The position numbers and the translations under genes are program-made. A DNA stretch of 64,000 bases from Litorivicinus sp. (GTDB lineage: Bacteria > Pseudomonadota > Gammaproteobacteria > Pseudomonadales > Litorivicinaceae), in assembly GCA_018401755.1 (NCBI GenBank), contig JAGYKJ010000006.1:62001-126000 (forward strand), given 5' to 3'. This document shows positions 45,654 to 62,021 of the stretch, piece by piece; position 1 is the first letter of the stretch, and every line of letters starts with the position of its first letter. The notes under the pieces are model-generated. The model saw nothing but the letters and a program-made list of their open reading frames with translations, was not told the origin of the DNA and searched no databases.

Positions 45654-45675
45654 AGACACGCACATTCCTCCATTG

Positions 45676-45709
45676 AAAAAGGGTCGGGGGCTCTAATTCC
45701 CCCCGACCC
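45676..45709 (-). terminator. Intrinsic terminator between pstS and pstC
   Basis: On the minus strand GGGTCGGGGG pairs perfectly with CCCCCGACCC around a 9-base loop, followed by five T residues just before the pstC ribosome-binding site. It would let the binding protein gene be expressed above the membrane genes. Confidence 0.85.
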
Positions 45710-45731
45710 CTGTGCGATCAAGCGATCACAA

Positions 45732-55664: not shown

Positions 55665-57817
55665 GCCATCACCAACCACCTGGATCCGCCGTCATCAAAG
55701 CGTACCTGCACTTTGACATTGGCACCTGCCCCCTCAAAGGCCAATACCGTTCCTTCGCCAAACATGCTGTGATCCACGCGTGAGCCGATTGCGAGCCCCG
55801 TTTCAAAGTCATCCCCCCACGCATCGGCACGCGGATGGCGCTGCGGTCTTGCCACAGGTCGCGCACCAAAGGCACTGGGTGCAAATGGACGACTAACCTG
55901 AGTCTCAAGACGAACCTCCTCAATCAGCTCAGCCGGGATTTCGCGAATAAAGCGGGACAGTAGGCCAAAGTGATCGCGCCCATTCAGTCGGCGAGATTCC
56001 GCATAGGTAATGGTGAGTCGTCGCATCGCGCGGGTCAGTCCAACATAAGCGAGCCGCCGCTCTTCTTCCAACCCACCATCAGAGTCCATGCTCATGCGAT
56101 GGGGAAATAACTCCTCCTCGGCGCCCACTAAAAAAACATCGGGGAACTCCAGTCCTTTTGCCGAATGTAAAGTCATTAACTGCACTGCATCGGCATCCGG
56201 GTCCGCTTGGTTGTCACCAGCGTCCAAACTGGCCTGACTCAAGAATTGTAATAGGACAGGTAAATCAGGATCTTCTGGTTCAAACCCACGACATGCGCTA
56301 ACCAATTCATTCAGGTTATCAATGCGCGCCTGGCCGCGCTCCCCTTTCTCGGATCCGTGATAAGCCAACAAACCGCTCTCATCAACAACCTGGGCAGTCA
56401 GCTCATGTAATTCCAAATCGAGGGCCTTCACATCAAACCGATCGATCAGCGCCAAAAATCCAGCCAATTGCGCGCGCGCTCGACCACTCAGCGCGCGTTG
56501 CTCGATCAGAAATGTTGAGGCCTGCCACAAACCCATCCCTTGATCACGGGCTGTGTCACGAATGAGATCAACCGTTTTATCGCCAATGCCGCGCGGGGGC
56601 ACATTGACTACGCGTTCGAAGGCTGTGTCATCGAGCCGGCTTTGAATCAAGCGCAGATACATCAGTGCATTTTTAATCTCAAGCCGTTCGTAAAACCGTT
56701 GCCCACCATAAATTCGATAGGGAATACCTGCACGCAAGAGCGCATCTTCTAACACGCGAGACTGCGCATTCGATCGGTACAAGATGGCAAGATCACTGTA
56801 CTTCGCACCCTGATCATGTGCCTTCATCATACGATTTGCGACGAAACGCGCTTCATCCTGCTCGTTGAACGCCGCATACAGCGAGATCGGCTCACCACGA
56901 CCCTGATCGGTCCACAGTTGCTTCCCCATCCGACCCTGATTATTGGCAATGACTGCATTCGCGGCCTCAAGAATCACTTCTGTCGAACGGTAGTTCTGTT
57001 CCAAACGCACGACATGAACAGGCGCAAACTCTGTCTGAAATCGATGGATATTTTCGATCCGCGCACCGCGCCAGGCATAGATCGATTGATCATCGTCACC
57101 AACCGCAGTCACACAGGTGTGCGGGCCTGCAAGCAAACGAATCCATGCATATTGAATCGTATTGGTATCCTGAAATTCGTCGATGAGAACGTGCCGAAAA
57201 CGCGCCTGATAATGTTCCAACAGAGCCGCATTTGACTTAAGCGTTTCGAATGTCCGAAGTAGAAGCTCTCCGAAATCAACCAAATGACTTTGGAGACACA
57301 AGGCTTCATACCGTCGATACACCTCGACACAGCGGTCGTGATAATAGTCACGCCCCGTCTGCAGGTGATGCGGGCGCTCACCCTGGTCTTTGCAGCCGTT
57401 GATAAAGCCGGCAAGGGCGCGGGGTTTGAACTTCGCATCATCAAGGCCAAGCTCCTGAATCACTCGCTTCACAAGTCGGACTTGATCATCAGCATCCAGA
57501 ATCACAAAGGCCTCAATCAAGCCTGCGTCTCGCCAATGCGCACGCAAAAAGCGATGTGCTAGCCCATGAAATGTCCCAACCCACATCTGGAAAAGCTGAC
57601 GACCAACGCGCTGCTCCAAACGCTCACGCATTTCTCGCGCCGCCTTATTGGTGAATGTCACCGCCATCAGAGCATGCGGTGACAGCCCGTTGTGCTGCAT
57701 CAAAAACGCCATGCGCTCGACAAGCACGCGCGTCTTTCCTGAGCCCGCGCCAGCGAGCACGAGCATGTGTGAGTCCGGAGCATGAACGGCGTCAAGTTGG
57801 GGGGTATTGAGTTGCAT
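55637..57817 (-). CDS. uvrD: DNA helicase II UvrD
   Basis: Helicase for nucleotide excision and mismatch repair. 726 residues. Motifs: NTPQLDAVH, LAGAGSGKTRVLVERMAFL (Walker A), VTFTNKAAREMRERL, LIDEFQDTNTIQYAW, GDDDQSIYAWRGA, TLHSAKGLEFPDVFLVG and LAYVGLTRAMRRL. The C-terminal Tudor-like part (VRFDDGGSRWL) is present. ATG at 57817 chosen; the frame extends to 57862 (GTG). Converges with the thioesterase gene. Confidence 0.96.
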   Translation of the reverse strand: MQLNTPQLDAVHAPDSHMLVLAGAGSGKTRVLVERMAFLMQHNGLSPHALMAVTFTNKAAREMRERLEQRVGRQLFQMWVGTFHGLAHRFLRAHWRDAGLIEAFVILDADDQVRLVKRVIQELGLDDAKFKPRALAGFINGCKDQGERPHHLQTGRDYYHDRCVEVYRRYEALCLQSHLVDFGELLLRTFETLKSNAALLEHYQARFRHVLIDEFQDTNTIQYAWIRLLAGPHTCVTAVGDDDQSIYAWRGARIENIHRFQTEFAPVHVVRLEQNYRSTEVILEAANAVIANNQGRMGKQLWTDQGRGEPISLYAAFNEQDEARFVANRMMKAHDQGAKYSDLAILYRSNAQSRVLEDALLRAGIPYRIYGGQRFYERLEIKNALMYLRLIQSRLDDTAFERVVNVPPRGIGDKTVDLIRDTARDQGMGLWQASTFLIEQRALSGRARAQLAGFLALIDRFDVKALDLELHELTAQVVDESGLLAYHGSEKGERGQARIDNLNELVSACRGFEPEDPDLPVLLQFLSQASLDAGDNQADPDADAVQLMTLHSAKGLEFPDVFLVGAEEELFPHRMSMDSDGGLEEERRLAYVGLTRAMRRLTITYAESRRLNGRDHFGLLSRFIREIPAELIEEVRLETQVSRPFAPSAFGARPVARPQRHPRADAWGDDFETGLAIGSRVDHSMFGEGTVLAFEGAGANVKVQVRFDDGGSRWLVMAYAKLVPLG

Positions 57818-57954
57818 CTGCGAAGTGTACCCGCTTGCAGAAGCGCTGACGATCCTCGGCACTCAACCGAATGCGAATGGTTTGCATTAATAGTCTAGAT
57901 GACGATTTTGTCATGAAATGATAGATGGGATTAATCGATGTCATTGAGAAATAA

Positions 57955-58004
57955 ACTTGGAAGTTTCCAACATGGATCCACATACTCTTCCAAGTCGCCA
58001 TGTT
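57955..58004 (+). promoter_or_regulatory. Overlapping inverted repeats in the rubrerythrin upstream region
   Basis: Two perfect repeats interlock: ACTTGGAAG (57955-57963) with CTTCCAAGT (57987-57995), and AACATGG (57969-57975) with CCATGTT (57998-58004). A 14-bp palindrome TTGGAAGTTTCCAA also spans 57957-57970, and its half-site TTCCAA recurs 23 bp later (57988). They lie 50-100 bp before the rubrerythrin ATG. They could be operator half-sites or alternative mRNA structures. Confidence 0.6.
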
Positions 58005-58054
58005 TGTGGCGCCTTAAGTCGAACTATTCGCATGCACCTCGAAGGAGATCTCAC

Positions 58055-58486
58055 ATGCAATTGAAAGGTACAAAAACTGAAGAGAGCTTAAAGGCCGCCT
58101 TTGCTGGCGAGTCAAAAGCAAACCGTCGTTACCTCTACTTCGCAAACATGGCGGACATCGAAGGCGCTCCTGAAGTCGCTAACGTATTCCGTAACACTGC
58201 GGAAGGTGAAACAGGTCACGCACACGGCCACATGGAATACTTAATTGCAGGTGGTTCTGGCGATCCTGAGACAGGTCTTGCTGCTGGCAACGTTGCCGAA
58301 GCGCTTGAATCTGCAATCGCAGGTGAAACACACGAATACACTGACATGTATCCAGGCATGGCGAAAGCCGCGCGTGAAGAAGGTTTTGACGAAGTCGCTG
58401 ATTGGTTCGAAACCTTGGCAAAGGCTGAGCGCAGCCACGCCAACAAGTTCCAGAAGACTCTGGACGCATACAAAGCAGAAGCATAA
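58055..58486 (+). CDS. Rubrerythrin (ferritin-like diiron protein, no rubredoxin domain)
   Basis: 143-residue ferritin-like four-helix protein. It begins [20 protein letters not shown]; ferroxidase-type glutamates appear in [37 protein letters not shown] and [13 protein letters not shown]. There is no C-terminal CxxC rubredoxin domain, so the electron donor is separate. Family members reduce peroxide. Strong AAGGAG 8 bp before the ATG at 58055; the frame is open to 57938 without conservation. First gene of a three-gene set with an Fe-S protein and DUF3501. Confidence 0.94.
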
Positions 58487-58494
58487 AGACCGCC

Positions 58495-58520
58495 AAAGGC
58501 CGAGGATTCCCTCGGCCTTT
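58495..58520 (+). terminator. Strong hairpin after rubrerythrin (attenuator or processing site)
   Basis: AAAGGCCGAGG and CCTCGGCCTTT form a perfect 11-bp stem with a 4-base loop, 8 bp after the rubrerythrin stop. The following bases (GCTCTTG) are only weakly T-rich, so it is a partial terminator at best. The next gene starts 26 bp later. Confidence 0.7.
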
Positions 58521-58546
58521 GCTCTTGAATTCTCACGGAGACACTC

Positions 58547-59902
58547 ATGGCTACGGAATCAAAGCGCGAAGGAAATCTGGAGGCGCCCACACGGCATCCC
58601 ATTGATTGGAAAAACCCCGCGTATTACGACGAGCAAAAGCTCGACGCAGAACTCGAGCGCGTCTTTGATATTTGTCACGGCTGCCGGCGCTGTTTGAGTC
58701 TCTGTAATGCCTTCCCGACACTCTTCGATCTCATTGATGACAGTGACACGATGGAAGTCGATGGCGTGGATAAAGCCGACTACGTCAAAGTGGTCGACGA
58801 GTGTTATCTCTGTGATATGTGCTACATGGCAAAGTGCCCTTACGTGCCGCCGCACCCATTCAACGTCGATTTTCCGCATCTCATGCTGCAAGCCAAAGCG
58901 GTCAAGCATCAAAAAGAAGGCATGTCGTTCCGCGATAAAGTGCTGTCTGATACCGACGGTCTCGGAAAGTTGGCCGGGATTCCGCTCATTACCGAGACGG
59001 TCAATGCAGTCAATCAATGGAAACCTGTCCGTAAAGTGGTTGAAAGTGCCCTTGGGGTTCACCAGAACGCATGGCTGCCAGAATTTGCGACTCAAACGCT
59101 GCGTCAAGGCAAGCACACAGCAACAGGACTCACCATCACTGACGGCTCCCGAACTCCTGGTAAAGTCGCGATCTTTGCGACCTGTTACATTAACTATAAC
59201 GAACCTGGCATTGGGCGAGATCTGATGAAGATCCTTGATCACAATGACATCCCTTGGGTTGTTGCCGAAAAAGAAGTGTGTTGTGGCATGCCGAAGCTGG
59301 AGCAGGGCGATTTGGAGGGCGTTGATCGCCTGAAGCGAATCAATATCCCGCATCTCGCGAAATTGGCGCGCGAGGGGTATGCCATCGTCGCGGGAGTCCC
59401 CTCGTGCACCTTGATGTTCAAACAAGAGATCCCGCTGATGTATCCCGATGACGAGGATGTGCAAGCGGTCAAGGCAGCATTCTGGGATCCTTTTGACTAT
59501 TTCGTGGCTCGCACCAAAGATGGTCTGATGAAAACTGATTTCCAATCAGGACTCGGTACGGTGTCCTATCAGGCGCCCTGTCATGGCCGAGTCCAGAATA
59601 TCGGCAAGAAGACCGAGGAGTTCCTTAAGATGATTCCAGGAACAGAGGTCAAAACGACCGAGCGTTGCAGCGGTCATGCCGGAACCTATGGCGTGAAAAA
59701 GGAGTTCCATGAGACGTCAATGAAAATTGGAAAACCTGTCTTCCGGACGATGAACGAGCAACAACCAGACTATATTTCGAGCGATTGCCCACTGGGCGGA
59801 CACCACATTGCCCAGGGTATCCGTGAGAACCACAACAATGAACCGAGCTTGGCACATCCAATTTCGTTGGTTGCCAAGGCCTATGGACTACGCGAGGAGT
59901 AA
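58547..59902 (+). CDS. GlpC/HdrD-like Fe-S oxidoreductase
   Basis: 451-residue cytoplasmic protein with two ferredoxin-type clusters, [15 protein letters not shown] (about residue 43) and [17 protein letters not shown] (about 86), followed by two CCG-type domains as in GlpC and heterodisulfide reductase subunit HdrD: FATCYINY then [10 protein letters not shown], and [10 protein letters not shown] then [11 protein letters not shown] (Ser in the second, where CCG is typical). No flavin subunit neighbours are present. With rubrerythrin and DUF3501 on either side it may pass electrons to the diiron protein; this is an inference. Five bases separate it from DUF3501. Confidence 0.9.
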
Positions 59903-59907
59903 TACAG

Positions 59908-60492
59908 ATGACTAAGATCGCCCGTAATTCGCTACTCTCGTTGGAAGAGTACGCCAAAAAACGCAGTGACATTCGTACCGACGCGATGCGTCTCAAAAAA
60001 GTGCGCTCCGTCTTTGTTGGTCCCAACATGACACTGCAATTTGAATCGGAAGCCACCATTCGCTACCAGATTCAAGAAATGCTGCGGATCGAGAAGACCT
60101 TCGAAGAGGAGGGGATTCAAGATGAACTCGAGGCCTACAATCCACTCGTTCCGGACGGTACCAATCTGAAGTGTACGCAGATGATTGAGTTCCCGGATGA
60201 AGACGAGCGCCGTGTCCGCCTTGCCGAACTCGTGGGCGTCGAAGATCGTACCTACATCCAAGTTCAAGGACAGGATCGTGTCTACGCAATCGCGGACGAA
60301 GATATGGATCGCTCGACAGCCACGAAAACCAGCTCGGTGCATTTCATGCGATTCGAATTCACAGCTAGCATGATCAAAGCGATCAAAGCCGGTGCACCAA
60401 TCGCCATGGGCGTGGATCATCCCAAGTACAACTTCCGTGTCGACGAAATTGATCCGGAAACGCAGGGTGCTCTGACCCAAGACTTCGCTTAA
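59908..60492 (+). CDS. DUF3501 family protein
   Basis: 194-residue protein of unknown function, recognised by its N-terminus (LLSLEEYAKKRSDIRTDAM), VGPNMTLQFESEATIRYQIQ, the EKTFEEEGIQDELEAYNPL helix and SSVHFMRFEFTASMIKAIK. No membrane segment, signal peptide, cysteine cluster or known catalytic motif. It is found, as far as I know, next to rubrerythrin and the Fe-S protein in many Proteobacteria. Followed by a terminator. Confidence 0.85.
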   Translation: MTKIARNSLLSLEEYAKKRSDIRTDAMRLKKVRSVFVGPNMTLQFESEATIRYQIQEMLRIEKTFEEEGIQDELEAYNPLVPDGTNLKCTQMIEFPDEDERRVRLAELVGVEDRTYIQVQGQDRVYAIADEDMDRSTATKTSSVHFMRFEFTASMIKAIKAGAPIAMGVDHPKYNFRVDEIDPETQGALTQDFA

Positions 60493-60499
60493 CACTGAC

Positions 60500-60524
60500 G
60501 AGGTGGCTGACTGACAGTCACCTC
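60500..60524 (+). terminator. Intrinsic terminator after DUF3501
   Basis: GAGGTG pairs with CACCTC, with a wobble and three more pairs inside (CTG/CAG) and a 5-base loop, 7 bp after the DUF3501 stop. A T-rich stretch (TTTGTGCGTTTT) follows. It closes the three-gene unit. Confidence 0.7.
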
Positions 60525-60581
60525 TTTGTGCGTTTTAAAGCCGCAGTTGTGTGCGATCATCCAATACCCGCAACACGAGGC

Positions 60582-62021
60582 ATGTCCGTGAATCCTTGGT
60601 CGTTTGACTACTCGTATCGCACGTTATCCGAGGACTTTTATCAGGATGCGATACCTGACACATTTGCTGACCCTCGTATTGCATTATGGAACGGTCCTCT
60701 TGCAGAACGTCTGGGTTTCCCAGCCTCTGCCGATACAGATACTTCGTTGGCAGCCGCCTTCTTAGGCAAACCCTGGCGAGAGCCGACGCAACCCCTCGCA
60801 CAAGCGTACGCTGGACACCAATTCGGACACTTCACCATGCTCGGTGATGGACGTGCCATTTTATTGGGCGAACGCCGCCTGAGCCACGGCGAACACATTG
60901 ATATTCAACTCAAGGGATCAGGTCGCACCCCCTTTTCACGGCGCGGTGATGGTCGAGCGGCTCTGGGTCCAATGCTCCGTGAATACCTCATTAGCGAAGC
61001 AATGCATGGGCTTGGGATTCCAACAACTCGGAGCCTGGCAGTCATCACAACCGGCGAAAACGTGCATCGAACAGGATTAGAGCCTGGCGCCGTGCTTATC
61101 CGGATTGCAGCCAGTCATTTGCGGGTCGGAACGTTTGAGTTTGCCCGTGCAAAAGACGGCCAACGTCTGCTACCAGAGCTCATCTCCTATGCTTTATCAC
61201 GGCACCCTAGCGCACAGTTGAGCGACAACCCAGCGCTGACACTCTTCGATGCCGTTCTTGAACGGCAACGACGACTCATTGTGGAATGGATGCGAGTTGG
61301 TTTTATCCATGGCGTCATGAATACTGACAATATGACGCTCTCGGGCGAGACCATCGATTATGGACCCTGCGCCTTCATGGATCGATTCAACCCACAGCAG
61401 GTATTTAGCTCAATTGACGAGTCTGGTCGGTATGCGTATTCGCAACAACCCATCATCGCCCAGTGGAATCTCGCCCGCTTTGCAGAAACCTTGCTCGACT
61501 TCTTTGCTCCCAATCAGGTCGATGCAATTCGGATTGCCGAAGAACGACTCGATGCCTTTAGTCAGGCATTTCAAGACGATTGGACGCAGATGATGCTGGG
61601 TAAAATTGGATTGCCAAATTCACCGACTCAGACCCCCCTAATCCATGCGCTGCTGGATTGGATGACCCGCACACGCGCGGATTTCACGGGAACGTTTCGC
61701 GGCCTTTCTGCGCGAGTTGCCGCACCACACTCCGGCGATGATCCAGAGTTTGTCCGCTGGCAAATGCGCTGGCGGGACGCCCTCACCGCGGAAGCCAGGA
61801 CACCGGAGGACATCAAAGATCAATTGAATCGCACAAACCCGCTCTATATCCCGCGCAATCATCGGGTTGAAGAGGCAATCTCTGCGGCTGTTATAGGCAA
61901 CTTTGCGCCTGTCCGGGCGCTCGTCACACGCTTGCAAACGCCCTATGTTGAACAGACAGATGGGCAAGCTGATGCAGAACCCGGGCCTGATGGGCCCTAC
62001 CACACCTTTTGTGGGACCTAA
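60582..62021 (+). CDS. selO: SelO family pseudokinase (protein AMPylator)
   Basis: 479-residue member of the SelO/YdiU/UPF0061 family, which transfers AMP to target proteins in redox stress. Landmarks: AYAGHQFGHFTMLGDGRA, LKGSGRTPFSRRGDGRAAL, HGVMNTDNM and DYGPCAFMDRF. The family C-terminal Cys is followed here by CGT at the end (HTFCGT). The ATG at 60582 has GAGG before it; the frame extends to 60528. The stop abuts that of the TRAP permease with no gap. Confidence 0.94.
   Translation: MSVNPWSFDYSYRTLSEDFYQDAIPDTFADPRIALWNGPLAERLGFPASADTDTSLAAAFLGKPWREPTQPLAQAYAGHQFGHFTMLGDGRAILLGERRLSHGEHIDIQLKGSGRTPFSRRGDGRAALGPMLREYLISEAMHGLGIPTTRSLAVITTGENVHRTGLEPGAVLIRIAASHLRVGTFEFARAKDGQRLLPELISYALSRHPSAQLSDNPALTLFDAVLERQRRLIVEWMRVGFIHGVMNTDNMTLSGETIDYGPCAFMDRFNPQQVFSSIDESGRYAYSQQPIIAQWNLARFAETLLDFFAPNQVDAIRIAEERLDAFSQAFQDDWTQMMLGKIGLPNSPTQTPLIHALLDWMTRTRADFTGTFRGLSARVAAPHSGDDPEFVRWQMRWRDALTAEARTPEDIKDQLNRTNPLYIPRNHRVEEAISAAVIGNFAPVRALVTRLQTPYVEQTDGQADAEPGPDGPYHTFCGT

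Follow-up and report, generated by a model that had tools for sequence, protein, structure and literature searches.

A member of the published aerobic-type rubrerythrin system in Litorivicinus sp., with a recurrent predicted stem-loop between its first two genes

Three closely packed genes of Litorivicinus sp. encode a rubrerythrin, an Fe-S protein and a protein of the DUF3501 family, raising the question of whether they form an undescribed redox system and, if not, how the three proteins might work together. The window analyzed here is the whole stretch of 64,000 nucleotides in which these genes lie. The genes, all on one strand and at the coordinates given by an earlier reading of the sequence alone, are as follows.

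58055–58486, + strand: rbr, a single-domain, aerobic-type rubrerythrin of 143 aa, probable di-iron peroxidase (PF02915, 3e-27)
58547–59902, + strand: rfo, a GlpC/HdrD-type Fe-S protein, RFO, of 451 aa (PF02754 in two stretches)
59908–60492, + strand: the DUF3501 gene, 194 aa, probable adaptor (PF12007, 4.3e-69; PDB 3fjv, E 3.9e-60)

The start of rbr is the ATG at 58055, seven bases past GAAGGAG. A gap of 60 bases separates rbr from rfo, and the DUF3501 gene starts 5 bases beyond the rfo stop. By Pfam search, the neighbors are a diverging UvrD helicase upstream and SelO downstream on the same strand; no flavoprotein is found among them, in agreement with the earlier statement that a flavin partner is absent. 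In 7 of 9 relatives (L181–L189) the region upstream of rbr likewise holds UvrD, while SelO, among the stretches compared, follows DUF3501 in the window genome only; the unit therefore probably ends at DUF3501. No Rfam match up to E 1 was found within 57500–60800, and no tRNA or tmRNA was found in the window.

The sequence-only reading had proposed a system not yet described, a claim that is contradicted by the literature. Cardenas, Quatrini and Holmes (2016) described an aerobic-type rubrerythrin lineage without a rubredoxin domain, co-localized with DUF3501 and a COG0247 Fe-S protein that they named RFO (PMC5114695). Of 4461 genomes in that study, 185 held all three and 25 rubrerythrin and DUF3501 only; DUF3501–RFO fusions were reported, and RFO was proposed as the electron donor standing in for the rubredoxin domain. 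In the Thermoproteales, DUF3501 accompanies rubrerythrin with no RFO (PMC5114695). The three-component system has also been ascribed to bacteria and some mitochondria, where the proteins are predicted (PMC7050145), and the cluster has been reported in further organisms (PMC7852563, PMC7760498). The window holds what defines membership in PMC5114695, namely a rubrerythrin with no rubredoxin domain and co-localized DUF3501 (PF12007) and CCG-domain RFO. The three families, the single-domain rubrerythrin, the co-localization, the co-occurrence and the fusions elsewhere are common to that system and to the set studied here, and no feature was found that sets the window apart from the system as described in the available portion of that paper. 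Judged by sequence, the trio is a normal member of the published system, whose biochemistry is largely uncharted: none was found for RFO or DUF3501 in the open-licence PMC literature.

Co-occurrence of the three families was counted in a single draw from the window's phylum that comprised 299 genomes, the window's own among them, with a requested completeness of at least 90%. DUF3501 was found in 22 genomes. Thresholds of at least 195 bits for the aerobic-type rubrerythrin and at least 347 bits for RFO, which were chosen after gaps in the scores had been seen (next best 142 and 152 bits), placed each of these families in 22 of 299 genomes as well. The 23rd RFO match (152 bits) was 32% identical. 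The next best rubrerythrin, from G229 (142 bits), was 55% identical and had no partner genes; the remaining rubrerythrin matches scored below 97 bits in the 45 genomes listed. It was the same 22 genomes for all three families, and in 22 of 22 the order was rbr–rfo–duf3501 on one strand. The gene set is thus kept far beyond chance. That it recurs in other Proteobacteria had been stated in the sequence-only reading and is borne out; the count that the reading had proposed found the families together rather than mostly apart. In the window's family 11 of 25 genomes carry DUF3501, in its order 48 of 293, and in the order of G210, a genome picked as a carrier of the gene, 116 of 250. With these counts and the prediction in some mitochondria (PMC7050145), the set is widespread.

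Further loci were taken from the best 80 of 585 DUF3501 matches, a sample that is biased to close relatives; Nitrosospira multiformis and Leptothrix discophora are among its carriers. RFO lay upstream of DUF3501 on the same strand in 79 of these 80, at a distance of no more than 112 bases in 72 loci and 315–415 bases in 7; at the 80th, where RFO was not seen, there were only 420 bases of room upstream. In 65 of the 80 the rubrerythrin gene precedes the pair on their strand; in 3 it is on the opposite strand and in 12 outside the stretch, the contig ending at or before rfo in 7 of these 12. Of the 73 loci of this sample that could be judged, 8 lack an rbr that is adjacent to the pair and co-directional with it. 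Genomes of the 15 loci without a co-directional upstream rbr held a full aerobic-type rubrerythrin in 7 cases, a partial one in 2 and none in 6; the six are metagenome bins whose completeness is not given, with the region intact in three (L136, L173 and L174) and contigs that end at rfo in the other three. Since RFO is upstream in 79 of 80 loci and rbr separable in 8 of 73 (best 80 of 585), RFO and DUF3501 are a tighter pair than either is with rbr.

As stated in the sequence-only reading, the rubrerythrin lacks its rubredoxin domain: its 143 residues include no cysteine, and PF02915 and PF00210 were its only Pfam matches. Both ExxH motifs are present (E52..H55 and E125..H128). A PDB sequence search gave single-domain rubrerythrins and sulerythrin as the nearest solved relatives. 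Sulerythrin (PDB 1j30) and a Burkholderia rubrerythrin (4di0) are alike in sequence across nearly the whole length, each being a structure of the rubrerythrin by itself. Ferriperoxin of Hydrogenobacter thermophilus is a single-domain protein for which FNR with NADPH was the donor tested and which, supplied in this way, reduces both H2O2 and organic peroxides; it is required for aerobic growth, and the knockout phenotype matches the measured hydroperoxide reduction (PMC3317640). PMC5114695 places ferriperoxin in the aerobic-type lineage, to which the window's rubrerythrin also belongs, with the difference that in the ferriperoxin organism the RFO gene sits apart, whereas in the window rfo is beside rbr.

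For RFO, the PF02754 CCG domain was matched in two stretches (whole-protein E 4.8e-18). The 4Fe-4S match, PF13183, reached 20.9 bits, under its cut-off of 27, so the two 4Fe-4S motifs rest on the cysteine pattern (C43/46/49/53 and C86/89/92/97). Across 20 sequences, 15 of 15 cysteines are invariant, eight of them making up these motifs, as are H346, H377 and H420. Two 4Fe-4S motifs and two CCG-type domains had been read from the sequence and are present, with the second CCG site altered. RFO and Escherichia coli GlpC share 27% identity, the CCG domains and the 4Fe-4S-type motifs, and the first CCG site (C213, C245/C246, C287) agrees with GlpC. The second retains C345, C374 and C414 only, two cysteines being lost, and reads CSGH and CPLGGHH against CCG and CETC in GlpC. 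RFO falls under both NCBIfam GlpC equivalog cut-offs (243.1 bits vs 278; 173.3 vs 279.9), and no glpA or glpB is found beside rfo, whose neighbors are UvrD, rbr, DUF3501 and SelO. From the altered second site, the scores below the cut-offs and the missing GlpA and GlpB, RFO is, by these sequence measures, GlpC-like yet not GlpC. With RFO as query, phmmer found no match up to E 0.01 among PDB sequences. A fold search with the RFO portion of a relative's modeled fusion protein gave LutA, EtfD and HdrB as the nearest predicted folds. LutA, EtfD and HdrB are electron-transfer proteins. The earlier suggestion that the Fe-S protein could supply electrons is supported, RFO being the probable source, and coincides with the published proposal (PMC5114695).

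DUF3501 matched PF12007 at 232.7 bits (gathering threshold 25; E 4.3e-69), and its family has a crystal structure, PDB 3fjv (sequence match E 3.9e-60), for which no relevant paper was found in the open-licence PMC literature. A model of the window's protein (pLDDT 92.5, pTM 0.87), in which helices are predicted to mix with the strands of a beta-sandwich, superposed on 3fjv with a TM score of 0.93 (Z 27.0, rmsd 1.5, 191 aligned). In a fold search, 3fjv was the only clear relative, other matches having Z scores of 6.5 or less and being beta-sandwich proteins of many kinds with no common function. The sole cysteine, C89, is not conserved. Across 58 sequences, 22 positions are invariant, half of them charged or His, including the acidic residues E46, E57, E62, E73, E112 and D132, plus H171. 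DUF3501 is probably a docking adaptor, a role suggested by its fusion to RFO in one genus and its company with rubrerythrin but no RFO in the Thermoproteales (PMC5114695). The fusions and the lack of a conserved cysteine thus favor the adaptor role raised in the sequence-only reading.

In the genus with fusions, DUF3501 occurs in 69 of 85 genomes. RFO and DUF3501 formed a single open frame in 26 of 100 loci examined, from 25 genomes (the G445 locus was counted twice, and two frames were truncated), and within that one genus the fusion is carried by 25 of 31 genomes with a locus examined. Among large open frames in G210's order, G445 was fused and G390, G451 and G425 were not. Natural fusions of ~660 aa indicate that RFO and DUF3501 can work side by side. 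One of them (659 aa) was modeled from an alignment of 101 rows, comprising 23 fusions, 40 DUF3501 and 38 RFO sequences, with the truncated fusions L078 and L089, redundant rows and E. coli GlpC (L064) left out. The model had a mean pLDDT of 88.2 and a pTM of 0.68 with no confident interface, and at this pTM the relative placing of the two parts is not settled.

The transcription signals around and within the unit are as follows.

57957–57986, + strand: probable promoter, TTGGAA-18-CATACT (-35-like box, 18 bases, -10-like box), boxes shared with genus relatives
57996–58011, + strand: 5'-UTR hairpin, CGCCAT-GTTT-GTGGCG, 5–6 pairs in the window as in 7 relatives of its genus
58494–58521, + strand: stem-loop of 12 perfect pairs with a 4-base loop, probable attenuator or 3'-end stabilizer (gap z -5.06)
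60500–60524, + strand: hairpin at the end of the unit, resembling a terminator but with a poor T tract, 10-nt arms, 90% complementary (z -2.87)

Of the 9 upstream regions compared from relatives, 7 keep both promoter boxes and their 18-base spacing; L181 (a sister genus) and L188 do not. The boxes are kept while the window's spacer is unrelated, the pattern that function would leave. The 5'-UTR hairpin is found at about the same place, with differing sequence, in 8 of 8 (the window and the 7 relatives with the promoter). A 9-bp inverted repeat (57955–57963 with 57987–57995) is not kept in genus relatives. What had been called a repeat-rich leader is thus mostly a probable promoter with a 5'-UTR hairpin, the inverted repeat belonging to the window and not to its relatives. 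At the other end, the hairpin at 60500–60524 is there as the earlier reading of a terminator required, but its T tract is poor and it fails the terminator scan. The internal stem-loop at 58494–58521 is stronger than this end hairpin. The unit may consequently not be one uniform transcript.

In the window's rbr–rfo gap, 0 of 200 shuffles folded as well (z -5.06). As an intrinsic terminator, 58494–58521 falls short in its T tract: the tail past the stem reads CTCTTGAATT, and the terminator scan does not list the site. Of six co-directional gaps of 35–200 bases in the window, three, this one among them, have z < -3; strong hairpins are thus no rarity in this genome, and one local hairpin is weak evidence. 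Gaps were compared across loci that have a rubrerythrin of at least 55% identity with a co-directional RFO; collapsing identical gaps left 86. Strong structure (z < -3) was found in 48 of these 86 and z < -2 in 68; within the window's family the counts were 10 and 12 of 12, and outside it 38 and 56 of 74. In a control on loci from the best 80 of 585 matches, with genes classed by ORF length, z was below -3 in 21 of 32 rbr–rfo gaps (median -3.45) vs 4 of 62 other co-directional gaps (median -0.2), a difference with a Fisher p of 1.8e-9, uncorrected for kinship. It is this recurrence across relatives, and not the local hairpin, that carries the argument. Covariation was followed in six hand-picked relatives fitting 28 positions (L010 trimmed from 30), with the window, L003, L007 and L012 left out for unfit lengths or alignment: 72 of 72 cells pair, and 4 pairs changed on both sides. 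The stem-loop may act by partial termination or 3'-end protection, holding rbr above rfo–duf3501. It is the one element that is apparently new; no mention of it was found in the available portion of PMC5114695, and no rubrerythrin paper was among the matches listed in a search of the open-licence PMC literature for a rubrerythrin with an attenuator or stem-loop. Operons with internal stoichiometry-setting hairpins (PMC8219983, PMC9045158) likewise have a stem-loop behind the gene needed in excess, with the difference that the rbr–rfo stem-loop is predicted from sequence alone.

These observations can be joined in one mechanism, which as a whole we regard as rather probable. The di-iron site of the rubrerythrin would be where H2O2 or organic peroxides are reduced. 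RFO, equipped with its CCG sites and two [4Fe-4S] clusters, would draw electrons from a general cell donor, for which ferredoxin, quinol and an NAD(P)H-flavoprotein from another locus are candidates, and, taking over from the lost rubredoxin domain, would hand them on. DUF3501, with no cofactor motif, would dock RFO to rubrerythrin; its company with rubrerythrin in the RFO-free Thermoproteales (PMC5114695) points to DUF3501 as the part touching both. The stem-loop after rbr would keep rbr message above that of rfo–duf3501, with many copies of the enzyme for each helper pair. The activity of ferriperoxin with FNR and NADPH implies that RFO is not strictly needed in vitro (PMC3317640). Also counting against the mechanism are the low-confidence domain arrangement of the fusion model, the 8 of 73 loci (best 80 of 585) and the bins in which rbr is apart or was not found, the partnerless rubrerythrin of G229, the further candidate peroxide defenses of the genome and, for the stem-loop, the want of a good T tract behind most hairpins (5 T in 8 in 11 of 67).

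That same turnover with FNR and NADPH alone (PMC3317640) also fits a different assignment, in which RFO and DUF3501 are a maturation or repair pair that reactivates or iron-loads the di-iron site and are not turnover donors. The invariant acidic residues and H171 of DUF3501 could bind metal, and the pair is sometimes found apart from rbr; set against this are the 15 invariant cysteines and electron-transfer-like fold of RFO and a fold search that gave DUF3501 no clear match to a metallochaperone (beyond 3fjv, Z 6.5 or less), and we consider such a maintenance role distinctly unlikely. Still less probable is that RFO–DUF3501 forms an Hdr-like thiol/disulfide enzyme, encoded together with rubrerythrin in an oxidative-stress operon but exchanging no electrons with it. 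The CCG domains and HdrB-like fold of RFO would suit it, as would the 8 of 73 loci with separable rbr (best 80 of 585) and a stem-loop that separates expression of rbr from the pair, but the pair goes with aerobic-type rubrerythrin in 22 of 22 carriers of the phylum draw, and the second CCG site is without two cysteines of GlpC. We give equally little weight to a scavenging reductase with O2 or NO as its substrate rather than peroxide. Di-iron proteins of the rubrerythrin superfamily can react with O2, which counts in favor of such a substrate. On the same side, the function of sulerythrin is called unclear in PMC9589262; in opposition, the single-domain relative reduces H2O2 and organic hydroperoxide, with a matching knockout phenotype (PMC3317640).

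The rbr–rfo hairpin could also be an ordinary terminator, with rfo–duf3501 under its own promoter and the three genes not co-transcribed. Strong hairpins do follow rbr in relatives, and 40 of 67 clear hairpins have at least 4 T in the 8 bases at the stem end, yet 5 T or more in the 8 bases past the stem are seen in no more than 11 of the 67. The 60-base gap contained no promoter in a scan of the + strand of 57700–60700 by a sigma-70 model, although the same scan did not list the probable promoter at 57957. On balance, separate transcription is unlikely, if less so than the other three alternatives, and partial termination or 3'-end protection is the reading we prefer for the stem-loop.

Should the peroxidase mechanism hold, RFO might be the first CCG-domain protein to feed a di-iron peroxidase, by way of a cofactor-free DUF3501 adaptor with a fold of its own, and the recurrent operon hairpin might fix a high peroxidase:donor ratio across many proteobacterial lineages; this wider claim is put forward tentatively. 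Direct test material is at hand in the fusions and in the residues that are invariant in RFO, and the stem-loop makes a simple, testable prediction on protein ratios.

Other candidate peroxide defenses were sought in the 2.19-Mb genome of the window. PF00199 catalase had no match there. PF00141 peroxidase gave two matches in one frame of 723 aa, an arrangement which we take to be that of KatG, and a PF10417 peroxiredoxin is also present. With this peroxidase and peroxiredoxin, the rubrerythrin unit would be one of several peroxide defenses, and peroxide removal need not rest on it.

Upstream of rbr, the gene of the single-domain aerobic-type rubrerythrin, promoter-like boxes (TTGGAA-18-CATACT, window 57957-57986) are common to the window and 7 genus relatives. 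By comparison of upstream regions, the whole 30-mer over this pair was found to be identical among the 7 relatives; a regulator site may be hidden in their spacer, likewise identical among them.

The gap between rbr and rfo, which encodes the GlpC/HdrD-type Fe-S protein RFO, holds a 12-bp stem-loop with all pairs perfect (window 58494-58521). Hairpins could be observed at the same place in many lineages, their sequence differing from that of the window. A further strong hairpin (window 45666-45731, minus strand; folding score against shuffled sequence z -5.1) separates two co-directional open frames.

Other arrangements of the set were also seen. At three loci (L132, L140 and L139, the last from Polynucleobacter), rbr is encoded on the strand opposite to duf3501, ~2.2 kb upstream of it. 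One genome carries, along with the usual copy, a second, diverged copy of the three-gene set (L002/L069, G018:C31), with identities to the window of 57% for RFO, 49% for DUF3501 and 72% for rubrerythrin. Locus L070 contains a rubrerythrin with 55% identity to that of the window (G229:C4:965227-965628), and a search of the G229 genome for DUF3501 and RFO gave no match to either. At another place in the window's own genome, a gene for a PF00141 peroxidase has one for a PF10417 peroxiredoxin close by (G000:C1:174149-177848).
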